Shown: positions 4,162-56,726 of the stretch, in pieces
How the letters are laid out: the number at the start of each line of letters is the position of its first letter
Numbering within the stretch: position 1 is the stretch's first letter
Assembly (NCBI RefSeq): GCF_004382795.1
Contig: NZ_SMSG01000003.1
Coordinates: 496,001 to 560,000 of the forward strand
Length of the DNA: 64,000 nt
Origin: Cumulibacter soli
GTDB taxonomy: Bacteria > Actinomycetota > Actinomycetes > Mycobacteriales > Antricoccaceae
Direction of reading: 5' to 3'
Position numbers and translations under genes: made by a program
The notes under the pieces: generated by a model
The model's input: the letters and a program-made list of their open reading frames with translations, nothing else
Databases searched by the model: none
What the model was told of the DNA's origin: nothing

Positions 4162-6393
4162 TCACCGCGCCGCTGATACCGCCTCATCGGTCACGGCTAC
4201 CTCGGTCGGCGGCACACTTCTCAAAGTCTCCCCTTCGACATCGATGCTCGGTAGTACCCGGTCGAGCCACCTCGGCATCCACCATGCGCGATCGCCCAGT
4301 AACGCCATCGTTGTCGGCATGATGATCATCCGTACGAGGAATGCGTCAAACACGATCGCTGCCGCCATGGAGAACCCCATCAGCTTCAGGAACGTCTCAC
4401 TGGAGAGTGTGAAGCCCGCGAACACCGAAATCATGATGACCGCTGCCGCCGTGATCACGCGAGCACCCGCTCGGTATCCGATTCGGATCGATTCCTGGGC
4501 TCCCGCGCCGTGATGGAACTCCTCGCGCATCCGGCTCACCAAGAAGACTTGGTAATCCATAGCCAAGCCGAAGACGATTCCGATCAGGAAGATTGGCATG
4601 AACACCAGGATCGGGCCTCGGTCCTCTGGCGATATCCAACCCAGCCAACCATTCTGGAAGAATCCGACGGTCACGCCGAAGGTCGCGGCGATCGACAACA
4701 AGAAGCCAAGCGAAGCGATCAACGGAATGACCACCGAACGAAACACAATCATCAACAGTAGGAAGGCCAACCCGACCACCACGATCAGATACAGCGGCAA
4801 CTTGCCTACCAGAGCGTCCGCGAAGTCGGCCTGGACCGCCGCTACGCCGCCAATCCCGACGTAGACACCGGTCTCGCTATTGACCTGGTCGGCGATCAGG
4901 CGCAGGTCGTCAAGAAGCTCGCTCGACTCTGGCGAGGAAGGTCCGCTGTCGGAGATCACGATGAATTGGGCCGCCGTACCTGCCTCATTTGGTATCGGCC
5001 CGATGAAACCGTCCTCAGCGATATGAGGCAGCGATCCGGCTTCGGCCGCAAATGCCGCGGATGCGGTAGTGAGCGCCTCCGCGCTATCGGCACTCGCCAC
5101 GACAATCATCGGCGCCGATTTTCCTTCGCCGAACGCGTCCCGTTCGATCTGCAATGCGGCCTTATCGGACTGCGTTGCAGTGTCCAGGCCTAATCGAAGG
5201 CCAGTGATTGGAATCGCTGCGAGCACGAGCACCACGGTGGCCGCGATCAGGTACGGAATGGGGCGCGCGGTCAGTTGGTTTCCGACTCGCTGACCGATCG
5301 TCGTACGACCGGCGCGGCGTTCCGGTGTCCACAGCAACGGAACTCGGGGTTTGAATACGAACGATTTGAACAGCCCCAGCAACGCCGGCAGGACAGTCAG
5401 CGACACAAGTACGGCCAGTACAACGGTCACCGCCGCCCCCATGCCCATCTGCGCCAGGAACGACATGCCGGTCAACGACAGCGCCACGAGCGCTATCACG
5501 ACGGTGGCGCCGGCAAACACCACGGCTGAGCCAGCCGTGCCGACCGCGACACCAGCAGCGTGAGATCGATCGTCGGTCTGCGTCGCCTCGTGCCGATATC
5601 GCGATATCACGAAAAGCGAGTAGTCGATTCCGACCGCTAGCCCGATCATCGTCGCCAGACCCGTGGTGGACGTGCCGAGCGTCAAGAACGCAGTGCCGAT
5701 CGAAATGATCGATGTGGACAACGCGATGCCCACGATCGCCGCCCCCAAAGGCATCGCAGCGGCCAACAGCGATGCAAAGGTGATGATCATGACGGCGATG
5801 GCGACCACGATGCCGATCAGTTCAGCGGGCGGTTCGACAATCTTCTCATTGGCGGCGCCAGCGCTCTCAACCAAGAGCCCCGCATCGCGGCCAATTTCCT
5901 TTGCCTCCGCCACGGTCGCAATAGTTTCCTCGGAAACACCGGTCTCGATGCCTTCTGGAACAGCATCAAGCGTCACCTCAATCACTGCTACCGAACCATC
6001 CGGACTGAGTGATTGGCTCGCAGCCGGCCCGACCACCGGATTAACGATCGCTGCACGCTGCGCTTCGGTGAGTTGAGGAATCTCGTGGAGTTTCGCAACG
6101 ACCGCCTCGATCGCCGTGAGGTTATCACCGGCGTCTAGGCGTTCTCCGTCCTGCGACTGAAAGACGATCGTGGCGCCCGGGCTTCCATCCTCCGCCAGTT
6201 GCGGGAACTCCTCCTGAAGCGTCTCCTGGGCTTCGACGGCTTGACTATCAGGCAAGGCGAAGTCGTCCTCGAAGGGCTTCGAGATCGCCGAACTCAATCC
6301 ACTGAGCATCACTGCCCCAACGATCCACAGTGCGATCACCAGCCACCAACGACGGTAAGAGAACCGCCCGAGCCGATACAACAACGAAGCCAT
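4162..6393 (-). CDS. MMPL-family (RND-type) membrane transporter
   Basis: 743 residues from the ATG with GGAG upstream; an earlier ATG at 6477 has no ribosome site. Two repeats, each with one membrane helix, an extracytoplasmic domain and five more helices: helix 1 near residue 15 (WWLVIALWIVGAVMLSG), the cluster from about 175 to 360, then the second half from about 400. GLAVGIDYSLFVISRYRHE and FGLAMDYQVFLVSRMREE are the family's paired Asp-Tyr motifs in helices 4 and 10, used in proton coupling. Exports lipids, siderophores or drugs; the substrate cannot be told. A TetR gene lies upstream and a MerR gene downstream in the same direction. Confidence 0.93.
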   Translation of the reverse strand: MASLLYRLGRFSYRRWWLVIALWIVGAVMLSGLSSAISKPFEDDFALPDSQAVEAQETLQEEFPQLAEDGSPGATIVFQSQDGERLDAGDNLTAIEAVVAKLHEIPQLTEAQRAAIVNPVVGPAASQSLSPDGSVAVIEVTLDAVPEGIETGVSEETIATVAEAKEIGRDAGLLVESAGAANEKIVEPPAELIGIVVAIAVMIITFASLLAAAMPLGAAIVGIALSTSIISIGTAFLTLGTSTTGLATMIGLAVGIDYSLFVISRYRHEATQTDDRSHAAGVAVGTAGSAVVFAGATVVIALVALSLTGMSFLAQMGMGAAVTVVLAVLVSLTVLPALLGLFKSFVFKPRVPLLWTPERRAGRTTIGQRVGNQLTARPIPYLIAATVVLVLAAIPITGLRLGLDTATQSDKAALQIERDAFGEGKSAPMIVVASADSAEALTTASAAFAAEAGSLPHIAEDGFIGPIPNEAGTAAQFIVISDSGPSSPESSELLDDLRLIADQVNSETGVYVGIGGVAAVQADFADALVGKLPLYLIVVVGLAFLLLMIVFRSVVIPLIASLGFLLSIAATFGVTVGFFQNGWLGWISPEDRGPILVFMPIFLIGIVFGLAMDYQVFLVSRMREEFHHGAGAQESIRIGYRAGARVITAAAVIMISVFAGFTLSSETFLKLMGFSMAAAIVFDAFLVRMIIMPTTMALLGDRAWWMPRWLDRVLPSIDVEGETLRSVPPTEVAVTDEAVSAAR

Positions 6394-27876: not shown

Positions 27877-28560
<684 letters not shown>

Positions 28561-48360: not shown

Positions 48361-48705
48361 CTAGTGGTCTGGGTGTAGCGGCGTATGCGGGGCGTTGATG
48401 TGGTGCAGCACCGCATGCGCCGCATCGTCCGCAAGGCTCCAGCGCCGGTAGCGGCCGTCCTTGCGGTACGCCACCACATCGGCGGCCAGTAACGTCGCCA
48501 GCGCCTGCGTCACGGTATTCGGGGCTATCGCGGTCGCGGTGGCGATCTCGGAAACGGATGCGTCCGGTGCCGCGTGAATAGCCACCAGAATCTTCATCCG
48601 CGTCGGGTCGGCGAAGAGTTCGAATGTCCCTACCCATCCCTCAATCGCCGCACTACTGCTATGCACCGCGTTCGCAGCGACCTCACCGGGCGTCTCGTTA
48701 TCCAC
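48361..48705 (-). CDS. ArsR/SmtB-family regulator with histidine-rich C-terminus
   Basis: 114 residues from a GTG with GAGG six bases upstream. Winged helix-turn-helix: FADPTRMKILVAIHAAPDAS, VSEIATATAIAPNTVTQALA. The tail, DDAAHAVLHHINAPHTPLHPDH, carries Asp and six histidines in the region where SmtB/CzrA/NmtR proteins bind Zn(II), Co(II) or Ni(II) (alpha-5 site). No cysteine is present, which excludes the As/Cd type. Divergent from a peptide/nickel-type ABC importer with an inverted repeat between, so it probably controls that importer in response to a transition metal. Metal identity is inferred. Confidence 0.82.
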   Translation of the reverse strand: MDNETPGEVAANAVHSSSAAIEGWVGTFELFADPTRMKILVAIHAAPDASVSEIATATAIAPNTVTQALATLLAADVVAYRKDGRYRRWSLADDAAHAVLHHINAPHTPLHPDH

Positions 48706-48734
48706 TACCAACCTCGTGATCGGCCGACGTCATA

Positions 48735-48768
48735 ACCGCACATGTGTGTAGCCAAACACACGTGCGGT
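48735..48768. promoter_or_regulatory. 13-8-13 inverted repeat between ArsR and ABC importer (candidate operator)
   Basis: Arms ACCGCACATGTGT and ACACACGTGCGGT pair at 12 of 13 positions around eight bases. The element lies 30 bases from the ArsR start and 43 from the binding-protein start, so one bound repressor could control both directions. It is longer than typical 12-2-12 ArsR sites. Confidence 0.65.
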
Positions 48769-48810
48769 AGGGTCGGAAACCGTCCAATACTCCGCACAGT
48801 AAGGCTACCC

Positions 48811-50433
48811 GTGGTCGACATCAGCAGACGACTGTTCCTGATAGGCACGGCGGGCGCAGTGCTGGCGGCAGCGGCGTGCAATGCGCCCGGAGTGGACGGT
48901 GGATCTGGAGCAAAGGACTCTCTAGCACTACTAACCGCGATGCTGCCGGAGACACTGAACCCGATTGCGGGCGCTGACAGCAATGGCATGGGCAAGATCA
49001 ACGAAGGCCTACTGACGCTCGAGGGCCCAGCAGACGACCTCCCCAATCTCGTCCCGCAACTCGCGGCAAGCGACCCCGAGCCGTCAGCGGACGCGAAGAC
49101 CTGGACGGTCAAGATCCGTCCCGACGTCGTTTTCTCGGATGGGACGCCGTTGACGGCCGAGGATGTCGTCGCCACGTACACCGCGATCATCGATCCCGCT
49201 ACCACCTCGCCGATCGCCGGCGACCTTTCGATGCTCAAGAGCGTCACAGCTCCCGATCCCACGACAGTCGTATTTACCCTCAAGGTGTCGTATGTCGCGT
49301 TTCCGACGAAGTTACTCATCGGAATCGCCCCGGCGGCTGCCATCGTTGCCGGCCAAAAGGTCGAGGAATCCGACCTGAACCAGAACCCGATCGGCACCGG
49401 ACCGTACGTCGTTGAGTCCTTCAGCAGCAGCACGTTGGTATACGTCGCCAACCCGAAGTTCCGTGACGGCGAACCAGCAATCAAGAAGATCACGTACGTC
49501 TCCACACCGGACGACAACACACGCGCACAGCAGATGACCGCCGGTGAGTACGACGGCTCAGTGCTCCCACCGCGGTTGGCGATCACATTCGAGAACTCCG
49601 ACGACGTCGAGGTCATCTCGGCTACGTCGGCAGATTGGCGCGGCATTTCGCTGCCACTAGACAACCCAGTGACCTCCGACCCCGCGGTGCGGATGGCGCT
49701 GAATCTCGGTATCGACCGCCAGGGGATGGTCGACGGCATCCTGATGGGGTACGGGCGGGCAGCTTCGACCTTCATCCCGCCGCAGTACACCGACTATTAC
49801 TCCGAGGACGCCGTATTCGCGTACGACGTCGATCAGGCGACTGCGATGCTGCAGGACGCTGGATGGTCAGTGGGTTCCGACGGCATCCGCACCAAGGATG
49901 GCCAGCGCGCAGAATTCAAGATCTACTACAAACCAGAGGACCGCCTGCGCAAAGACCTATCGGCGGCATTTGCCTCCGAAGCACTCAAGCTCGGCTTCGA
50001 CGTCACTATCGAGGGTGCCGGCTTCGACGTACTCGAGCCACACATCCACCAGGATGCGGTGATGCTCGGTGGCGGTGACACGCCGTACGACATCGATTCG
50101 CAATTGTTCTCAATGCTGCACTCGTCGTACCCGGCCGCGGGCGCGTACTACGACAACCCCAGCCAGTACGCCAACCCAAAGATGGATGCTGCGCTGGAGA
50201 AGGGGCGCACTTCACTCACCCTGAAAGAGCGCGTCGCGGCGTACCAAGAAGTCCAGAACATTTACATGGCAGAGCCATCGATGGTTGTCCTGGTTTTCCT
50301 CGATCACACCTATGTCCAACTACGCGCCATCGCTGACGCGTGGCACGACACATCAACGATTCTCGAGCCGCATGAGCACGGCACGTCGTGGGGGCCTTGG
50401 GTCAACATCGAGCAATGGACGCCGAAGGACTAG
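48811..50433 (+). CDS. ABC importer substrate-binding lipoprotein, peptide/nickel (SBP_bac_5) family
   Basis: 540 residues from GTG with AAGG upstream; an ATG at 48742 lies inside the inverted repeat and is unlikely. Twin-arginine-like signal (ISRRLFLIGTAGAVLAAAAC) with a lipobox cysteine, so it may be exported folded by the Tat system and then lipidated. The mature part is SBP_bac_5: LLTAMLPETLNPIAGADSNG, WTVKIRPDVVFSDGTPLTAE, VRMALNLGIDRQGMVDGILM. Family members bind peptides, opines or nickel chelates. First gene of a complete five-gene importer; the regulator next door points to a metal or metallophore. Confidence 0.88.
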   Translation: MVDISRRLFLIGTAGAVLAAAACNAPGVDGGSGAKDSLALLTAMLPETLNPIAGADSNGMGKINEGLLTLEGPADDLPNLVPQLAASDPEPSADAKTWTVKIRPDVVFSDGTPLTAEDVVATYTAIIDPATTSPIAGDLSMLKSVTAPDPTTVVFTLKVSYVAFPTKLLIGIAPAAAIVAGQKVEESDLNQNPIGTGPYVVESFSSSTLVYVANPKFRDGEPAIKKITYVSTPDDNTRAQQMTAGEYDGSVLPPRLAITFENSDDVEVISATSADWRGISLPLDNPVTSDPAVRMALNLGIDRQGMVDGILMGYGRAASTFIPPQYTDYYSEDAVFAYDVDQATAMLQDAGWSVGSDGIRTKDGQRAEFKIYYKPEDRLRKDLSAAFASEALKLGFDVTIEGAGFDVLEPHIHQDAVMLGGGDTPYDIDSQLFSMLHSSYPAAGAYYDNPSQYANPKMDAALEKGRTSLTLKERVAAYQEVQNIYMAEPSMVVLVFLDHTYVQLRAIADAWHDTSTILEPHEHGTSWGPWVNIEQWTPKD

Positions 50434-50437
50434 GTCC

Positions 50438-51463
50438 ATGCCTCCGCCCCTGACCACCGAACCAGCGCGCACTTCTGGCACCCACGCACGGTGGGGTAAG
50501 GCAGCGCGTTTGGCAGGCTGGCGTGCGCTCATCGCGGTCCCCATCACGGCCGCCGTGTCAATGATCGTGTTCTGGCTGGCCTCGATCGCCCCGTTCAATC
50601 CGCTGGCGGCCTACCTCGGACCGAGGTTCGAACGCGCCAGCCTGGAGGAACGTGCCGCGCTCGCCGAGCAACTCGGCATCGATGATTCCTGGATAACCAT
50701 CTGGGGGCGATGGGCGCGCGATGTGGTCTTACATTGGGACTGGGGATACTCGCGTTCGATGGCCCGGCCCGTCGCCGACGTACTCAGTGAGCGTCTGCCC
50801 TGGACCGTCATGTTGGGTGCTGTAAGCATGACGATCGCGGTGGGATTGTCGCTCGTTCTCGGCGTTGCGGCTGCCCGCCATCCCGGCTCGCTGATCGATC
50901 GATGTGCGACCGCACTGGCGCACATCGTGCAGGGCCTGCCGCCATTCGTGATCGCGCTCGGCGCGATAGTCATCTTCTCCCTCACCCTGCAATGGCTACC
51001 GGTCGCTGGGGTCTCTCGCGGCGGCGCCGATCCGACGTGGGGATCGATCGCAACGCATATCGTCCTACCGGCGGCGGTCTTGGGCTTGTCGCAGGTGCCG
51101 TGGCTGCTATTGAACGTCCGGACCTCGGTACTGACGGCGCTGACCGAAGATCACGTCACTGCCGCCCGCGCCCGCGGTCTCCCGGACAGGACGACTATCT
51201 GGAGGCACGCACTCCCCGGAGCGCTGCTGCCGTTCGTTACCTTGATCGGCGCCCGATTGCCAGAACTGGTCACCGGGGCTGTAGTGGTGGAAACCGTCTT
51301 CGCGTGGCCGGGCCTCGCATCCGCAACTGTTGACGCTGCCGTTGAGGGCGACTTTCCGCTACTCGCTGCGGTCACGGTGCTCACCAGCCTGATGGTGCTG
51401 ATCGGGTCGCTCATCGCCGACGCCGTGTACGTCCTGGTGGATCCAAGGGTTGACGATGCCTAG
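50438..51463 (+). CDS. ABC importer permease (DppB/NikB-like)
   Basis: 341 residues; ATG four bases after the binding protein stop. Hydrophobic first helix near residue 28, a periplasmic loop, then the conserved inner-membrane core with the EAA loop TARARGLPDRTTIWRHALPG that contacts the ATPase. TGAVVVETVFAWPGLASATV is typical of DppB/NikB. Pairs with the next gene, which overlaps its end by eight bases. Confidence 0.92.
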   Translation: MPPPLTTEPARTSGTHARWGKAARLAGWRALIAVPITAAVSMIVFWLASIAPFNPLAAYLGPRFERASLEERAALAEQLGIDDSWITIWGRWARDVVLHWDWGYSRSMARPVADVLSERLPWTVMLGAVSMTIAVGLSLVLGVAAARHPGSLIDRCATALAHIVQGLPPFVIALGAIVIFSLTLQWLPVAGVSRGGADPTWGSIATHIVLPAAVLGLSQVPWLLLNVRTSVLTALTEDHVTAARARGLPDRTTIWRHALPGALLPFVTLIGARLPELVTGAVVVETVFAWPGLASATVDAAVEGDFPLLAAVTVLTSLMVLIGSLIADAVYVLVDPRVDDA

Positions 51464-52397
51464 TCACGCAACCGACGTACTGCACAAGGCCGAGCCGAGT
51501 CTCGCCACGAGCGATCGACGTTGGCGGGACGTTCCTAGCTGGCCGTCGCGCCGACGCGCACGACGGCCGCTGTCGAAACGCGCGAGCATCGTGTGCGTGG
51601 CGATTCTCGTCGTGCTGGCGCTCTACTGCATCATCGTGCCCGCGGTCGCGGACGTCGACCCGCGCGTCGTCGATCTCTCCGCGTACCTGCAACCGCCGTC
51701 GAGCGCTCACCTGATGGGCACCGATCTACTCGGGCGCGATCTATTCGTACGCAGCGCGCAGGCGCTGCGCATTTCCTTGATGTTGGCCGCCACTGCCGCG
51801 GTCGTCTCGACGGTGCTCGGCTCGGTGATCGGTACCCTGGCCGCCCTCGCCGGTGGCTGGGTGGACAAGGTCGTGATGCGCGCGGTCGACGCGCTCAACG
51901 CGCTACCGCATCTGCTGCTCGGCGTCGTGATCGCCTCACTGTGGCGCGGAGCCTGGTGGGCGATCGTGGCGTCGATCGCGCTCACGCACTGGACCCAGAT
52001 CGCACGCATCGTCCGCTCGGAAATTCTGTCGCTGCGCAATCGAGAGCACGTCGACGCAGCGATTGCTTCGGGCGCGTCACGTCGACAGGTGTGGGCGACT
52101 CACCTACTTCCTGCTGTGGTCCCGCAGGCACTCATCGCCGTCGTGCTGACCCTGCCGCACGCAGTCTGGCACGAAAGCACGCTGTCGTTCCTCGGCGTCG
52201 GACTGCCGCCGAACGATCCGTCCCTGGGCACCCTGCTGGAGGACGCGCGCGAAGGAATCCTCGCCGGCGGCTGGTGGATGCTGTTCTTTCCCGCCGTCCT
52301 ACTCACTGCGGCGTGCCTGGCCGTTGCCGGCCTCGGCGGTAGTCTGCGCGATAAGTCCATTCCGAAACGAGCCGTGGAAGCCGAGGTGTCGCGGTGA
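51456..52397 (+). CDS. ABC importer permease (DppC/NikC-like)
   Basis: 313 residues from the ATG with AAGGG upstream (a TTG two codons earlier is possible). After a cytoplasmic N-terminus it has the DppC/NikC order: SAHLMGTDLLGRDLFVRSAQ, then EAA loop AAIASGASRRQVWATHLLPA and WHESTLSFLGVGLPPNDPSL. Heterodimerises with the previous permease. The stop overlaps the ATPase start by four bases. Confidence 0.92.
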   Translation: MPSHATDVLHKAEPSLATSDRRWRDVPSWPSRRRARRPLSKRASIVCVAILVVLALYCIIVPAVADVDPRVVDLSAYLQPPSSAHLMGTDLLGRDLFVRSAQALRISLMLAATAAVVSTVLGSVIGTLAALAGGWVDKVVMRAVDALNALPHLLLGVVIASLWRGAWWAIVASIALTHWTQIARIVRSEILSLRNREHVDAAIASGASRRQVWATHLLPAVVPQALIAVVLTLPHAVWHESTLSFLGVGLPPNDPSLGTLLEDAREGILAGGWWMLFFPAVLLTAACLAVAGLGGSLRDKSIPKRAVEAEVSR

Positions 52398-53317
52398 GGC
52401 CCGGGCTGGAGCTCGTGGAGATGTGCGTACGCATCCCGTTACCGGGCACCCCGACGCGGTGGGTGTATCCCGCGCGGAACCTCAGCGTGACTTTCCCGGC
52501 ATCCAGCATCACCGCGATCGTCGGCGAGTCGGGCTGCGGGAAGTCGGTGCTAGCGCTGGCCGCCACAAGCTTGCTGCCGGGCGGCTCACAAACGAGCGGT
52601 TCACTATTCGCGGACGGACTGGATGTCCTTAATGCCACCGAGCCCGAACTCAGCGCGGCCAGAGGCCGGCGCATCGGGCTCGTACCGCAGTCTGCGGCGA
52701 CGCACCTCACGCCGGTGCGCACGATCGGTTCGGTGATGGCTGAGACGCTCAAACTCCATGGCCTGCCGTCCGCCCGTGATGACATCGCCGCGCTGCTAGC
52801 CCAGGTCGACCTAGCCCCGCAGGTCGCGGGACAGTTCCCGCACGAGGTCTCCGGCGGGATGGCGCAACGGGTGCTCGTCACGCTGGTGTGCGCACTCGAA
52901 CCACCGGTGCTCATTGCCGACGAACCGACGTCGGCGCTCGACGCGCACAGCGCACGATTGGTTCAGCGGAAACTGCGCGATCAAGCTGATCGCGGATCGA
53001 CGGTCCTGCTGATCACCCACGATCTACTGGCGGCTCGTTCGGTTGCCGACCGCGTGGCGGTGATGTACGCCGGACAAATCCTGGAATACGGACCGGCCAA
53101 TGTCGTACTGTCCGAGCCCGCTCACGATTACAGCCGAACCTTGCTCGATGCGCTTCCAGAGAACGGTCTCAAGCCGCCCCCCGGCACGCCCTCGTCACTG
53201 GTCGATCCGGATCCGTTGGTGTGTGCGTGGCATACGCGTATCGGGGTGGAATGCGCGGCGCATCCGCTCGTTGCGAACGATGCTGGGCACTTCGTGGCGT
53301 GTTCGGAGGCTTGGTAA
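52394..53317 (+). CDS. ABC importer ATPase (DppD/NikD-like)
   Basis: 307 residues from GTG (GTGA overlap with the permease). Walker A GESGCGKSV, signature VSGGMAQRVLV, Walker B VLIADEPTSALD, switch His LITHDLLAARSVADRV. The C-terminal Cys-containing end (LVCAWHTRIGVECAAHPLV, then HFVACSEAW) is the oligopeptide/dipeptide ATPase tail. Works with the second ATPase on the permease pair. Confidence 0.93.
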   Translation: MRPGLELVEMCVRIPLPGTPTRWVYPARNLSVTFPASSITAIVGESGCGKSVLALAATSLLPGGSQTSGSLFADGLDVLNATEPELSAARGRRIGLVPQSAATHLTPVRTIGSVMAETLKLHGLPSARDDIAALLAQVDLAPQVAGQFPHEVSGGMAQRVLVTLVCALEPPVLIADEPTSALDAHSARLVQRKLRDQADRGSTVLLITHDLLAARSVADRVAVMYAGQILEYGPANVVLSEPAHDYSRTLLDALPENGLKPPPGTPSSLVDPDPLVCAWHTRIGVECAAHPLVANDAGHFVACSEAW

Positions 53318-53988
53318 TGCTGCGGTTGACGGACTTGAGTGTCACCTATCCCGGTGCATCATCGCCGGTGTTCTGCGGACTCAACCTCGATGTGCCCGCG
53401 GGTACGACGTACGGCGTGCACGCACCGTCAGGCAGCGGGAAGACAACCTTGTTGAAGGCGGCGGCCTTGCTTCTGCCGCTAACAAGCGGCGCAGTGGCAG
53501 TAGACGGCACCACGGTCGACGGAAAGCGGTTCGCCGTACCGCAGGATGTGCGACGCAGGATTGGCGTGGTGTTCCAGTCGCCGCGCGCCTCGACCGATAC
53601 GCGACTGAGTTTGCGCGACATTATCGCCGCACCGCTATCGCACGATCGTGGGTTTTCCCGACCACGCGCGGCACGCTTCACCGACCAGATCGCGGAGTTG
53701 GCCGAACGCGTACAGCTCTCCGACGACCTCCTCGATCGCCTCCCCCATCAAGTCTCCGACGGTCAGCTGCAGCGCGCTTGCCTGGCTAGAGCGCTTGCGC
53801 TCAATCCTCGGGTCCTGATCTGCGACGAGCCGACGGCGATGCTTGACGCACCAACGACGGCGATCATCATGCGGTTACTCACCGAGCAAGCCAGCAGCGG
53901 ATCGGCGGTATTACTGGCATCGCACGATCTCGCCTTGCTCGACGCGACCTGCAGTGTCGTTTCTGACAAGAAGTCGCTGATCTGGTAA
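53317..53988 (+). CDS. ABC importer ATPase (DppF/NikE-like), short
   Basis: 223 residues; start ATG shares one base with the preceding stop (TAATG) and has GGAGG upstream. Walker A APSGSGKTT, signature VSDGQLQRACLARALAL with Asp-Gly in place of Gly-Gly, Walker B VLICDEPTAMLD, switch His LASHDLALLD. Shorter than usual DppF because the C-terminal tail is absent, closer to NikE in size. Completes the five-gene importer. Confidence 0.9.
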   Translation: MLRLTDLSVTYPGASSPVFCGLNLDVPAGTTYGVHAPSGSGKTTLLKAAALLLPLTSGAVAVDGTTVDGKRFAVPQDVRRRIGVVFQSPRASTDTRLSLRDIIAAPLSHDRGFSRPRAARFTDQIAELAERVQLSDDLLDRLPHQVSDGQLQRACLARALALNPRVLICDEPTAMLDAPTTAIIMRLLTEQASSGSAVLLASHDLALLDATCSVVSDKKSLIW

Positions 53989-55141: not shown

Positions 55142-56726
55142 ATGCACCGATTCATCAAACTAGGCGGCCTTGTCGCCGCTGCCGTCCTGGCGCTCAGCGC
55201 CTGCGGCGACGCACCGAGAAAGAAAGCCGAGACGCACGATGAGGCCGTCTCGAAGTACCCGGCGAGTATCGATCTCGACGAGGACTATGACCCGGACGCC
55301 GAACTCGCATTCGCCTGGCCGCTTGAGGCCACGAGTTGGGATCCGCATCAGGGTGTGTCGGACTACGACTTGACCTATCTGTTCCCGGTATACGACCGGT
55401 TGATCGGGGTCAGCCCCGATGACGAGAAGGTCCCCATGCTGGCGACGGATTGGGAGGTGTCGGACACCGCTATCACGCTGACGTTGCGCGACGGGGTTTC
55501 CTTCAACGACGGCACCCCTTCGATGCCGACGCCGTCAAAATCAACCTCGATCGGGCCCGTTCGGACGATGACAGCAAGATCAAGGAGCAACTCTCCACGA
55601 TCACCGACGTCACGGCAGTGGACGAGCACACCGTGAAGATCGCGATCGATGGCAAACCCGGGCTCATCCTCGGAATGCTGACGAGTCGCGCGGGGATGAT
55701 TGCCTCGCCTGCTGCCATCGAAGCCGGCACCCTGCACACCCAGCCAGATGGGATCGGCGCGTATCAGGCCGTCGACATCAAACTCGGCGATGAAGTGCGC
55801 TTCGAACGGACGCCTGACTACTGGGACCCCGACGCTCAGCGGGTGGCCGCGATGACCTACTACTACATGCCGCAGTCGCAGACTGCTGTGAACGCGCTGC
55901 TGTCCGGGCAGGTGCAGATCGCGCACATCGAGCCAGACCAGATCGGCGATGTCGATCCGAACGAGACTCCGGTGATCGCCGGCGGCTTCTCGGCCATGCA
56001 GTTCATCGAGTTCAATACCGCCGAAGAACCGTTTGACGACCCCAACGTACGGCTCGCACTCAATCTCGCGATCGATCGCCAAGGCATCGCCGACGGGCTC
56101 AATGACGGACTGTGCGAAGTCCCGATCCAGCCATGGCCGTCCTCTAGCATCGCCTACGACGAGGAGATCGGCGACGGCGCCGAAGTGTGGCCCTACGACC
56201 CGCAGAAGGCCACGGAGTTGCTCGCCGAAGCCGGTTATCCCGATGGGTTCACCTTCGACGCGATTACCTCGACGGTCTCCTACTACGCCAAACTGTCCGA
56301 AGTCATTCAGTCGATTTCAAAGACATCGGCGTGACCATGGACTTTGAGATCGCTCCCCGCCCGCAGATGGTCGAGGAGTTCTCTATCAAGAAGACCCTGC
56401 CGTCAATGGTGGCCGCTAACCCGGCCCACGTGGATCCCGAATACACGAACCTGTACGTATTCGAGGAGGGTTCGGTCAACAACCCCGGTGACTCCCTCCC
56501 GGACGATCAGCGGGATCTGCTGACGCAGGCGGCGAACGAACCCGATGACGCTGTGCGTCACGACCTGTACTCGGAGTTCATGAACTTGGTCGTGCAGGAA
56601 CCCACTGGATTCATGCCGGTGTGTAATGCCGATCTGATCTATGTTCTCGATCCCGGCGTCAGCGGAATCTCGACGTACAACAACTCGGTGCGCGATCTGC
56701 GTGGTGTCGCGTATACGCCACAGTAG
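55142..56726 (+). pseudogene. Peptide/nickel-type substrate-binding lipoprotein, two frameshifts
   Basis: An SBP_bac_5 gene read in three successive frames. It starts [20 protein letters not shown]-Cys (lipobox LSAC), runs to FNDGTP near 55518, resumes one frame lower as FDADAVKINLDRARSDDD through LALNLAIDRQGIADGLNDGL, breaks again near 56311 (LSEVIQS then DFKDIGVTMDFEIAPRP) and ends VRDLRGVAYTPQ with stop at 56724-56726. Each break is explained by one missing base. Frame 2 would otherwise end at 56334. No permease or ATPase neighbours it. Either a decayed orphan copy or two sequencing errors; two independent lesions favour decay. It is not a copy of the gene at 48811. Confidence 0.8.

Follow-up and report, generated by a model that had tools for sequence, protein, structure and literature searches.

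The locus described here occupies positions 48361 to 53988 of a 64,000-nucleotide stretch of the 3.9-Mb genome of Cumulibacter soli (contig NZ_SMSG01000003.1, positions 496,001 to 560,000); the whole stretch is referred to as the window and its genome as G000. A gene for a cysteine-free regulator of the ArsR family lies divergent from a complete, tightly packed ATP-binding cassette (ABC) importer at 48811–53988 on the plus strand, made up of a binding protein, two permeases and two ATPases, and a long inverted repeat separates the two. This arrangement had been pointed out in a preliminary description made from the sequence alone; reading frames and family profile matches agree with it, and the coordinates of the repeat were confirmed. 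The parts are as follows:

48361–48711, minus strand: ArsR-family regulator of 116 amino acids without cysteine (list of open reading frames, NCBIfam, alignment of relatives)
48735–48768, no strand: 13-8-13 inverted repeat with one mismatch, arms 48735–48747 and 48756–48768 (sequence)
48742–48761, no strand: conserved 20-bp operator core ATGTGT-N8-ACACAC (comparison with the relative G003, genome pattern search)
48768–48773, plus strand: possible -10 element TAGGGT adjoining the operator (read by eye)
48811–50433, plus strand: family-5 binding lipoprotein, NikZ/CcNikZ-II/YntA-like (Tat-like signal, lipobox, C-terminal EPHEHG)
50438–51463, plus strand: permease B, start judged by eye, immediately past the stop of the binding protein
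51456–52397, plus strand: permease C, start judged by eye
52394–53317, plus strand: ATPase D, closest to NikD among the NCBIfam models (179.7 bits, cut-off 318.7)
53317–53988, plus strand: ATPase E, closest to NikE among the NCBIfam models (131.1 bits, cut-off 332.55)

The regulator begins with MVVDNE and ends in the His-rich tail DDAAHAVLHHINAPHTPLHPDH. It scored 56 bits with the NCBIfam model HTH_metalloreg (NF033788), barely above the cut-off of 55, and the ArsR domain was matched at E <= 1e-3 in all 19 members of an alignment of relatives. A scan for the sigma-70 consensus found no promoters, including none at the candidate -10 element.

Considering gene context and an operator conserved across relatives, where it stands at three types of nickel/cobalt importer, regulated uptake of nickel or cobalt, as proposed earlier, is well supported. 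In our reading, to which we assign a probability of roughly 0.74, an ArsR-family repressor from a subfamily devoted to nickel/cobalt uptake controls a nickel/cobalt importer at this locus, and the metal-loaded repressor is most likely the form that binds DNA.

By chance alone the inverted repeat would be unremarkable, as bare repeats like it (arms of 13, at most one mismatch, gap of up to 20) recur at 10 separate sites across the window (22 overlapping rows); its weight comes from the conservation of the inner 20 bp. The entire arrangement is present in G003, with identities to the window of 78% for the ArsR protein, 79% for the binding protein, 79–81% for the permeases and 70–71% for the ATPases. 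There the intergenic region retains the core ACATGTGT-N8-ACACATGT, that is, the form ATGTGT-N8-ACACAT before the orthologous importer, while the outer five bases of the repeat differ. In whole-genome pattern searches ATGTGT-N8-ACACAY occurred once each in G000 and G003, in both cases at this importer, and nowhere in three relatives lacking the ArsR gene. Looking for the repeat before homologous importers, a check suggested in the preliminary description, was hence fruitful: the core is kept in G003, and the same 6-8-6 class of operator stands at importer starts in more distant relatives.

These relatives came from searching 397 genomes of the order with the ArsR protein (E <= 1e-10, no more than 11 candidates per genome being scored), which gave at least 66 matches in at least 65 genomes. 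All 66 loci were compared, 16 of them from family f14, a sister clade, and 50 from elsewhere. A gene for a NiCoT permease, a CbiM-type protein or the binding protein of this ABC importer lies within the stretch in 32 of the 50 non-f14 loci, and in three of the 50 the ArsR gene is found at the end of a urease operon (L155, L167 and L170 hold such a same-clade gene, beside an ndh-like gene, with no operator at threshold). The dominant form of the operator in relatives is ATCTGT-N8-ACAGAT. A score built on RTnTGW-N8-WCAnAY (threshold 10.5) found 25 places in the 50 loci (625,549 bp), all at importer starts: 24 fall in the interval that runs from 200 bp before the aligned start of a transporter gene to 60 bp within the gene, and the 25th, in L191, directly precedes a CbiM gene cut by the edge of the locus. 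Five mononucleotide shuffles of the same loci gave a mean of 1.0 place, and the 16 f14 loci (197,715 bp) gave none. The exact form ATCTGT-N8-ACAGAT was present in 15 of the 397 genomes, the reversed-pattern control in six. In nine of these 15 (G010, G087, G094, G129, G141, G177, G237, G261, G340) the site stands at a nickel/cobalt importer, no more than about 6 kb from an ArsR gene of the clade. The remaining six (G007, G078, G246, G260, G280, G304), about the number predicted by the reversed control, had no match to the NiCoT, CbiM, binding-protein, permease, UreC or CDF (cation diffusion facilitator) references in the 1.5 kb or less covered on each side of the site; G246 belongs to f14, and G304 possesses a urease-linked ArsR gene of the clade with its exact site elsewhere. 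None of the Rfam families attained its gathering score in the 12 CbiM-type loci scanned (six further non-f14 loci with such a gene, L067, L156, L185, L191, L212 and L222, lay outside the scan), which argues against control of these genes by a vitamin B12 riboswitch, a candidate that was rejected.

In a tree of 66 rows (65 ArsR proteins from the search and L234, a plasmid locus considered below; 103 columns) the f14 proteins and L192, which is linked to a CDF gene, lie on a separate side (support 99/97), and the window protein groups with family f3 (98/99). The alignment is short, the root was set by midpoint, many forks are open, and the NmtR-like L234, whose long branch was flagged as unreliable, is placed within the uptake clade; a single origin of the clade is therefore not proved. 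The f14 loci, for example L068 and L159, show tails like HELIHHVRPHP, neighbours resembling HAD (haloacid dehalogenase) phosphatases and sugar phosphorylases by eye, and no operator at threshold. Genome G328 holds two ArsR genes of interest, one (L223) in an ArsR/ABC pair preceded at about 5586–5621 by two overlapping operator-like sites, the other (L186) beside a CbiM-type importer. The ArsR search against plasmids gave no match, and a scan of genomes with the binding protein, from which 80 loci were kept, gave by tblastn one weak ArsR match of another kind (L078).

The 19 aligned relatives, hand-picked from the 50 non-f14 loci, all carry His46, His99, His103 and His109, and Asp95 is nearly invariant among them. 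Every one of the 48 members with a readable tail (a count that excludes L192, which is of another kind, and the unread L223) has the tail motif H-x3-H, with a third tail His at +10 or +11 in 47 of them and at +13 in L189; most f14 members also display H-x3-H, but in a different tail. The preliminary description had recognised an alpha-5 metal site pattern here. Its wealth of His was borne out, its spacing was not: the canonical alpha-5 site of ArsR proteins (CzrA/SmtB/NmtR type) consists of Asp-x-His and His-x-x-His/Glu on helix 5, whereas the window protein presents D-x3-H-x3-H-x5-H. In the alignment to NmtR (2lkp) two residues, the Asp and the final His, coincide with NmtR ligands, but a residue other than His stands at the place of His93 and the ligands of the N-terminus are missing; the predicted site is thus not the known alpha-5 site, although the two may overlap. 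A single-sequence fold of the protein reached a mean predicted local distance difference test (pLDDT) value of 63.6, with helix 5 and the tail mostly below 50, so only a helix at 93–105 was taken from it and the tail was not placed.

Nickel is brought into focus by the distribution of urease. In family f7 (79 genomes) urease was present in 37 of 39 ArsR carriers versus 13 of 40 non-carriers (Fisher p 3.7e-9), and within genus g9 in 21 of 22 carriers versus 6 of 19 non-carriers (p 2.6e-5). The table was compiled from hand-copied lists covering f7, G000 and the other families being excluded, and weak PF00449 matches (best E above 1e-20; G147, G206, G225, G233, G241, G272, G276, G280) were entered as absent. 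G003, with the same locus as the window, possesses both urease and nickel superoxide dismutase (Ni-SOD).

Several observations weigh against the proposed reading. At the threshold used, eight of the 32 importer loci (L064, L065, L066, L156, L177, L194, L219, L221) have no site, though near-forms can be read before the importers in L194, L219, L221, L177 and L065, those of the last two being a form with ATCGGA arms upstream of a lipoprotein signal and 21–40 bp before a NiCoT reading frame. Two of the 16 f14 loci contain a CbiM-type gene in the stretch yet no site, and 18 of the 50 other loci, including the three linked to urease, have no nickel/cobalt importer start in the stretch. The operator counts are not fully independent, because the score was derived from some of the loci counted; exact patterns are less affected by such tuning but were likewise chosen after the loci had been seen. 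The urease statistic carries no phylogenetic correction below the genus, and 'carrier' denotes a match at the E-value and candidate number of the ArsR search. Moreover, urease, [NiFe] hydrogenase and Ni-SOD were not found in G000, these being the nickel enzymes searched for, and G001 has Ni-SOD without this ArsR. Finally, according to reviews, the usual ArsR/SmtB response runs the other way, metal releasing the protein from DNA.

The absence of these three nickel enzymes bears on the metal. G000 encodes the cobalt users CobN and a nitrile hydratase of the CTLCSC (cobalt) type, so the metal there would be nickel or cobalt, cobalt being at least as likely as nickel. That importer and regulator in G000 serve cobalt, for vitamin B12 and the cobalt nitrile hydratase, and not nickel has by our estimate only just less than an even chance, and it is compatible with the other readings. 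The NicO-family permease, too, was not found in G000. On the other hand, CobN and nitrile hydratase are also present in G001, G002 and G004, members of the family which all lack this ArsR; G003 combines the same locus with urease and Ni-SOD; the regulator tracks urease in relatives; the nearest binding proteins are nickel proteins; and the search of G000 covered only the three nickel enzymes named. Zinc, which the preliminary description had allowed for, had no pointer in the context, and no separate test for it was made.

Mechanistically, an ArsR dimer would block transcription by occupying the 20-bp operator, with its 6-bp arms and 8-bp gap, within the promoter of the importer; as the genes are divergent, the operator also lies near the start of the regulator's own gene. 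Ni(II) or Co(II) would be sensed by a site formed by His46 and His99/His103/His109, with Asp95. Capture would fall to the surface lipoprotein, which may bind the metal in a small complex, for example Ni(His)2, before its import through the ABC permease. The direction of the response is the most conditional of these steps: because the targets are importers, the metal-loaded protein is most likely the DNA-binding form, and import would stop once metal suffices.

The main rival to metal as co-repressor is a metal-induced importer, in which the apo-protein represses and nickel or cobalt releases it, as in canonical ArsR/SmtB proteins and the reported CblA. It is favoured by the reviewed nickel/cobalt sensors of the family, NmtR, KmtR and CblA, all of which are derepressors; according to reviews, known nickel/cobalt ArsR proteins release DNA upon metal binding, mostly for the control of efflux (PMC7055735, PMC7689651, PMC10961391). 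However, these three control efflux or a metalloenzyme, whereas the import regulators NikR and Nur use metal as a co-repressor, and the metal site of the window protein is unlike that of NmtR. A metal-induced importer is thus considered unlikely, albeit a serious competitor of the co-repressor reading.

The nature of the substrate was approached through the binding protein, the likely start of which is, in our own reading, the GTG at 48811, giving VVDISRRLFLIGTAGAVLAAAAC with a Tat-like (twin-arginine translocation) twin-Arg motif plus lipobox. The Tat-like lipoprotein signal noted in the preliminary description is thus real in the window and in G003, but did not hold up as a clue to the ligand: among six other regulated binding proteins SRRxFL is complete only in that of G003, and the five more distant ones are without it, an Arg pair remaining in L177 (RRRLVAL) and L182 (ARRTVGL). 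As the signal is not fully shared by distant importers, no conclusion on the ligand should rest on it. The four best solved structures by sequence were CcNikZ-II (8efz), the YntA-like 4ofl and 3ry3, and CjNikZ (4oet); the Yersinia pestis protein 3ry3 was deposited as a putative solute-binding protein but aligns like YntA. For a model from 21 sequences (pLDDT 89.9) the top six VIA-align entries were NikZ, CcNikZ-II and YntA proteins (Z 38.0–43.3; NikZ 43.3, CcNikZ-II 42.7, YntA with Ni(L-His)2 39.5), the first protein of another kind following at 36.4. These proteins, nearest in both sequence and fold, share 27–30% identity with the window protein. At the same aligned place the Clostridium and Campylobacter relatives carry adjacent His (GHHG), whereas the window protein has H-x-H (EPHEHG), as have most aligned actinobacterial relatives, judged by alignment only; the title of the CcNikZ-II study reportedly speaks of an 'HH-prong'. 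The nearness to nickel proteins, in sequence and in the model, makes nickel or cobalt a likely ligand but is no demonstration.

An importer of peptides or another organic solute, with the regulator answering a non-metal signal, is improbable. Many solved family-5 binding proteins do bind such compounds, and no NikA-type NCBIfam model reached its cut-off (TIGR02294, 147.1 of 393; NF045468, 134 of 600); against this stand the same class of operator before NiCoT and CbiM-type genes and the nearness to nickel proteins in fold and sequence. Uptake of an opine-type metallophore, the chelate envisaged in the preliminary description, is less probable still and was rejected, since the similarity to CntA is distant (82.9 bits against a cut-off of 800, so that a CntABCDF importer is not indicated) and no nicotianamine-synthase-like gene (PF03059), the one metallophore pathway searched for, occurs in any of the seven genomes with the importer (G000 and six relatives).

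G000 appears rich in importers of the peptide/nickel type: the binding protein gave at least 24 matches there, 23 out of 62 initial candidates having been scored. A second family-5 binding protein gene at 55142–56726 of the window is split over the overlapping frames 55142–55636, 55450–56334 and probably 56187–56726, and is therefore either broken or affected by sequencing errors. A flavin mononucleotide (FMN) riboswitch (107 bits) lies at 28392–28553 on the minus strand.

Extending the reading beyond the window, an ArsR/SmtB subfamily of the order (mycobacteria included, by inference) could take the part that NikR and Nur play in other bacteria as a general regulator of nickel/cobalt uptake, with logic inverted for its family: metal at a new His46/His99/His103/His109 site would promote binding to the 6-8-6 operator, and three unrelated types of importer would be governed interchangeably; we put forward this generalisation tentatively and would give it somewhat less than even odds. 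The order itself is very probably Mycobacteriales, and genus g9 very probably Mycobacterium. A switch common to three unrelated nickel/cobalt importer types is apparently undescribed: no report of the regulon was found in the open-access literature, weak evidence of absence given that most subscription journals lie outside its reach, and the word ArsR does not occur in the main text of a comparative survey of how nickel and cobalt are used (PMC2667541). If the generalisation is true, a single small regulator, recognisable by its tail and operator, serves across a large order, and the two features would mark unassigned NiCoT, CbiMNQO and ABC operons as nickel/cobalt importers. Should metal indeed act as the co-repressor, an ArsR/SmtB protein of opposite allosteric sign would offer a direct test of how the family couples metal to DNA.

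Among known regulators, NmtR of Mycobacterium tuberculosis, an ArsR/SmtB protein which responds to nickel and cobalt and represses an efflux ATPase, shares the fold and the link to these metals (the window protein matches 2lkp at E 4e-18). Its ligands are given as the N-terminal amine, His3, Asp91, His93, His104 and His107 (PMC7055735). The window protein differs in lacking the N-terminal MGH and a His at the place of His93, in its conserved His46, His99 and His103, and in its importer targets; with its MVVDNE start and importer target it is no NmtR.

KmtR, from the same species, likewise combines the ArsR fold with nickel and cobalt, but represses a CDF exporter and was set apart by description; L192, the sole match neighbouring a CDF gene, differs in its tail and was grouped with the f14 clade. 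CblA of Rhodococcus, an ArsR protein described as derepressing nitrile hydratase in response to cobalt or nickel (PMC7689651), resembles the window regulator in having as its target a gene of metal use, not of efflux. An unverified CblA candidate lies beside nitrile hydratase on a plasmid of Rhodococcus sp. M8-35 (L234); it has an NmtR-like MGH start, a D-x-H tail differing from that of the window protein, and 31% identity to it over 68 amino acids. The 18.6-kb region, including cobalt energy-coupling factor (ECF) genes, had no operator at threshold (best 9.5). Regulation of the CblA type was rejected on the NmtR-like nature of this protein and the lack of a site in its region, always bearing in mind that it is a candidate CblA only.

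NikR and Nur, which according to the same reviews bind DNA with nickel and control import (PMC7055735, PMC7689651, PMC10961391), belong to other protein families (NikR and Fur, respectively) but share the predicted role of shutting nickel import. As the regulator of the window is placed on importers, it should respond as they do, that is, as an inverted ArsR.

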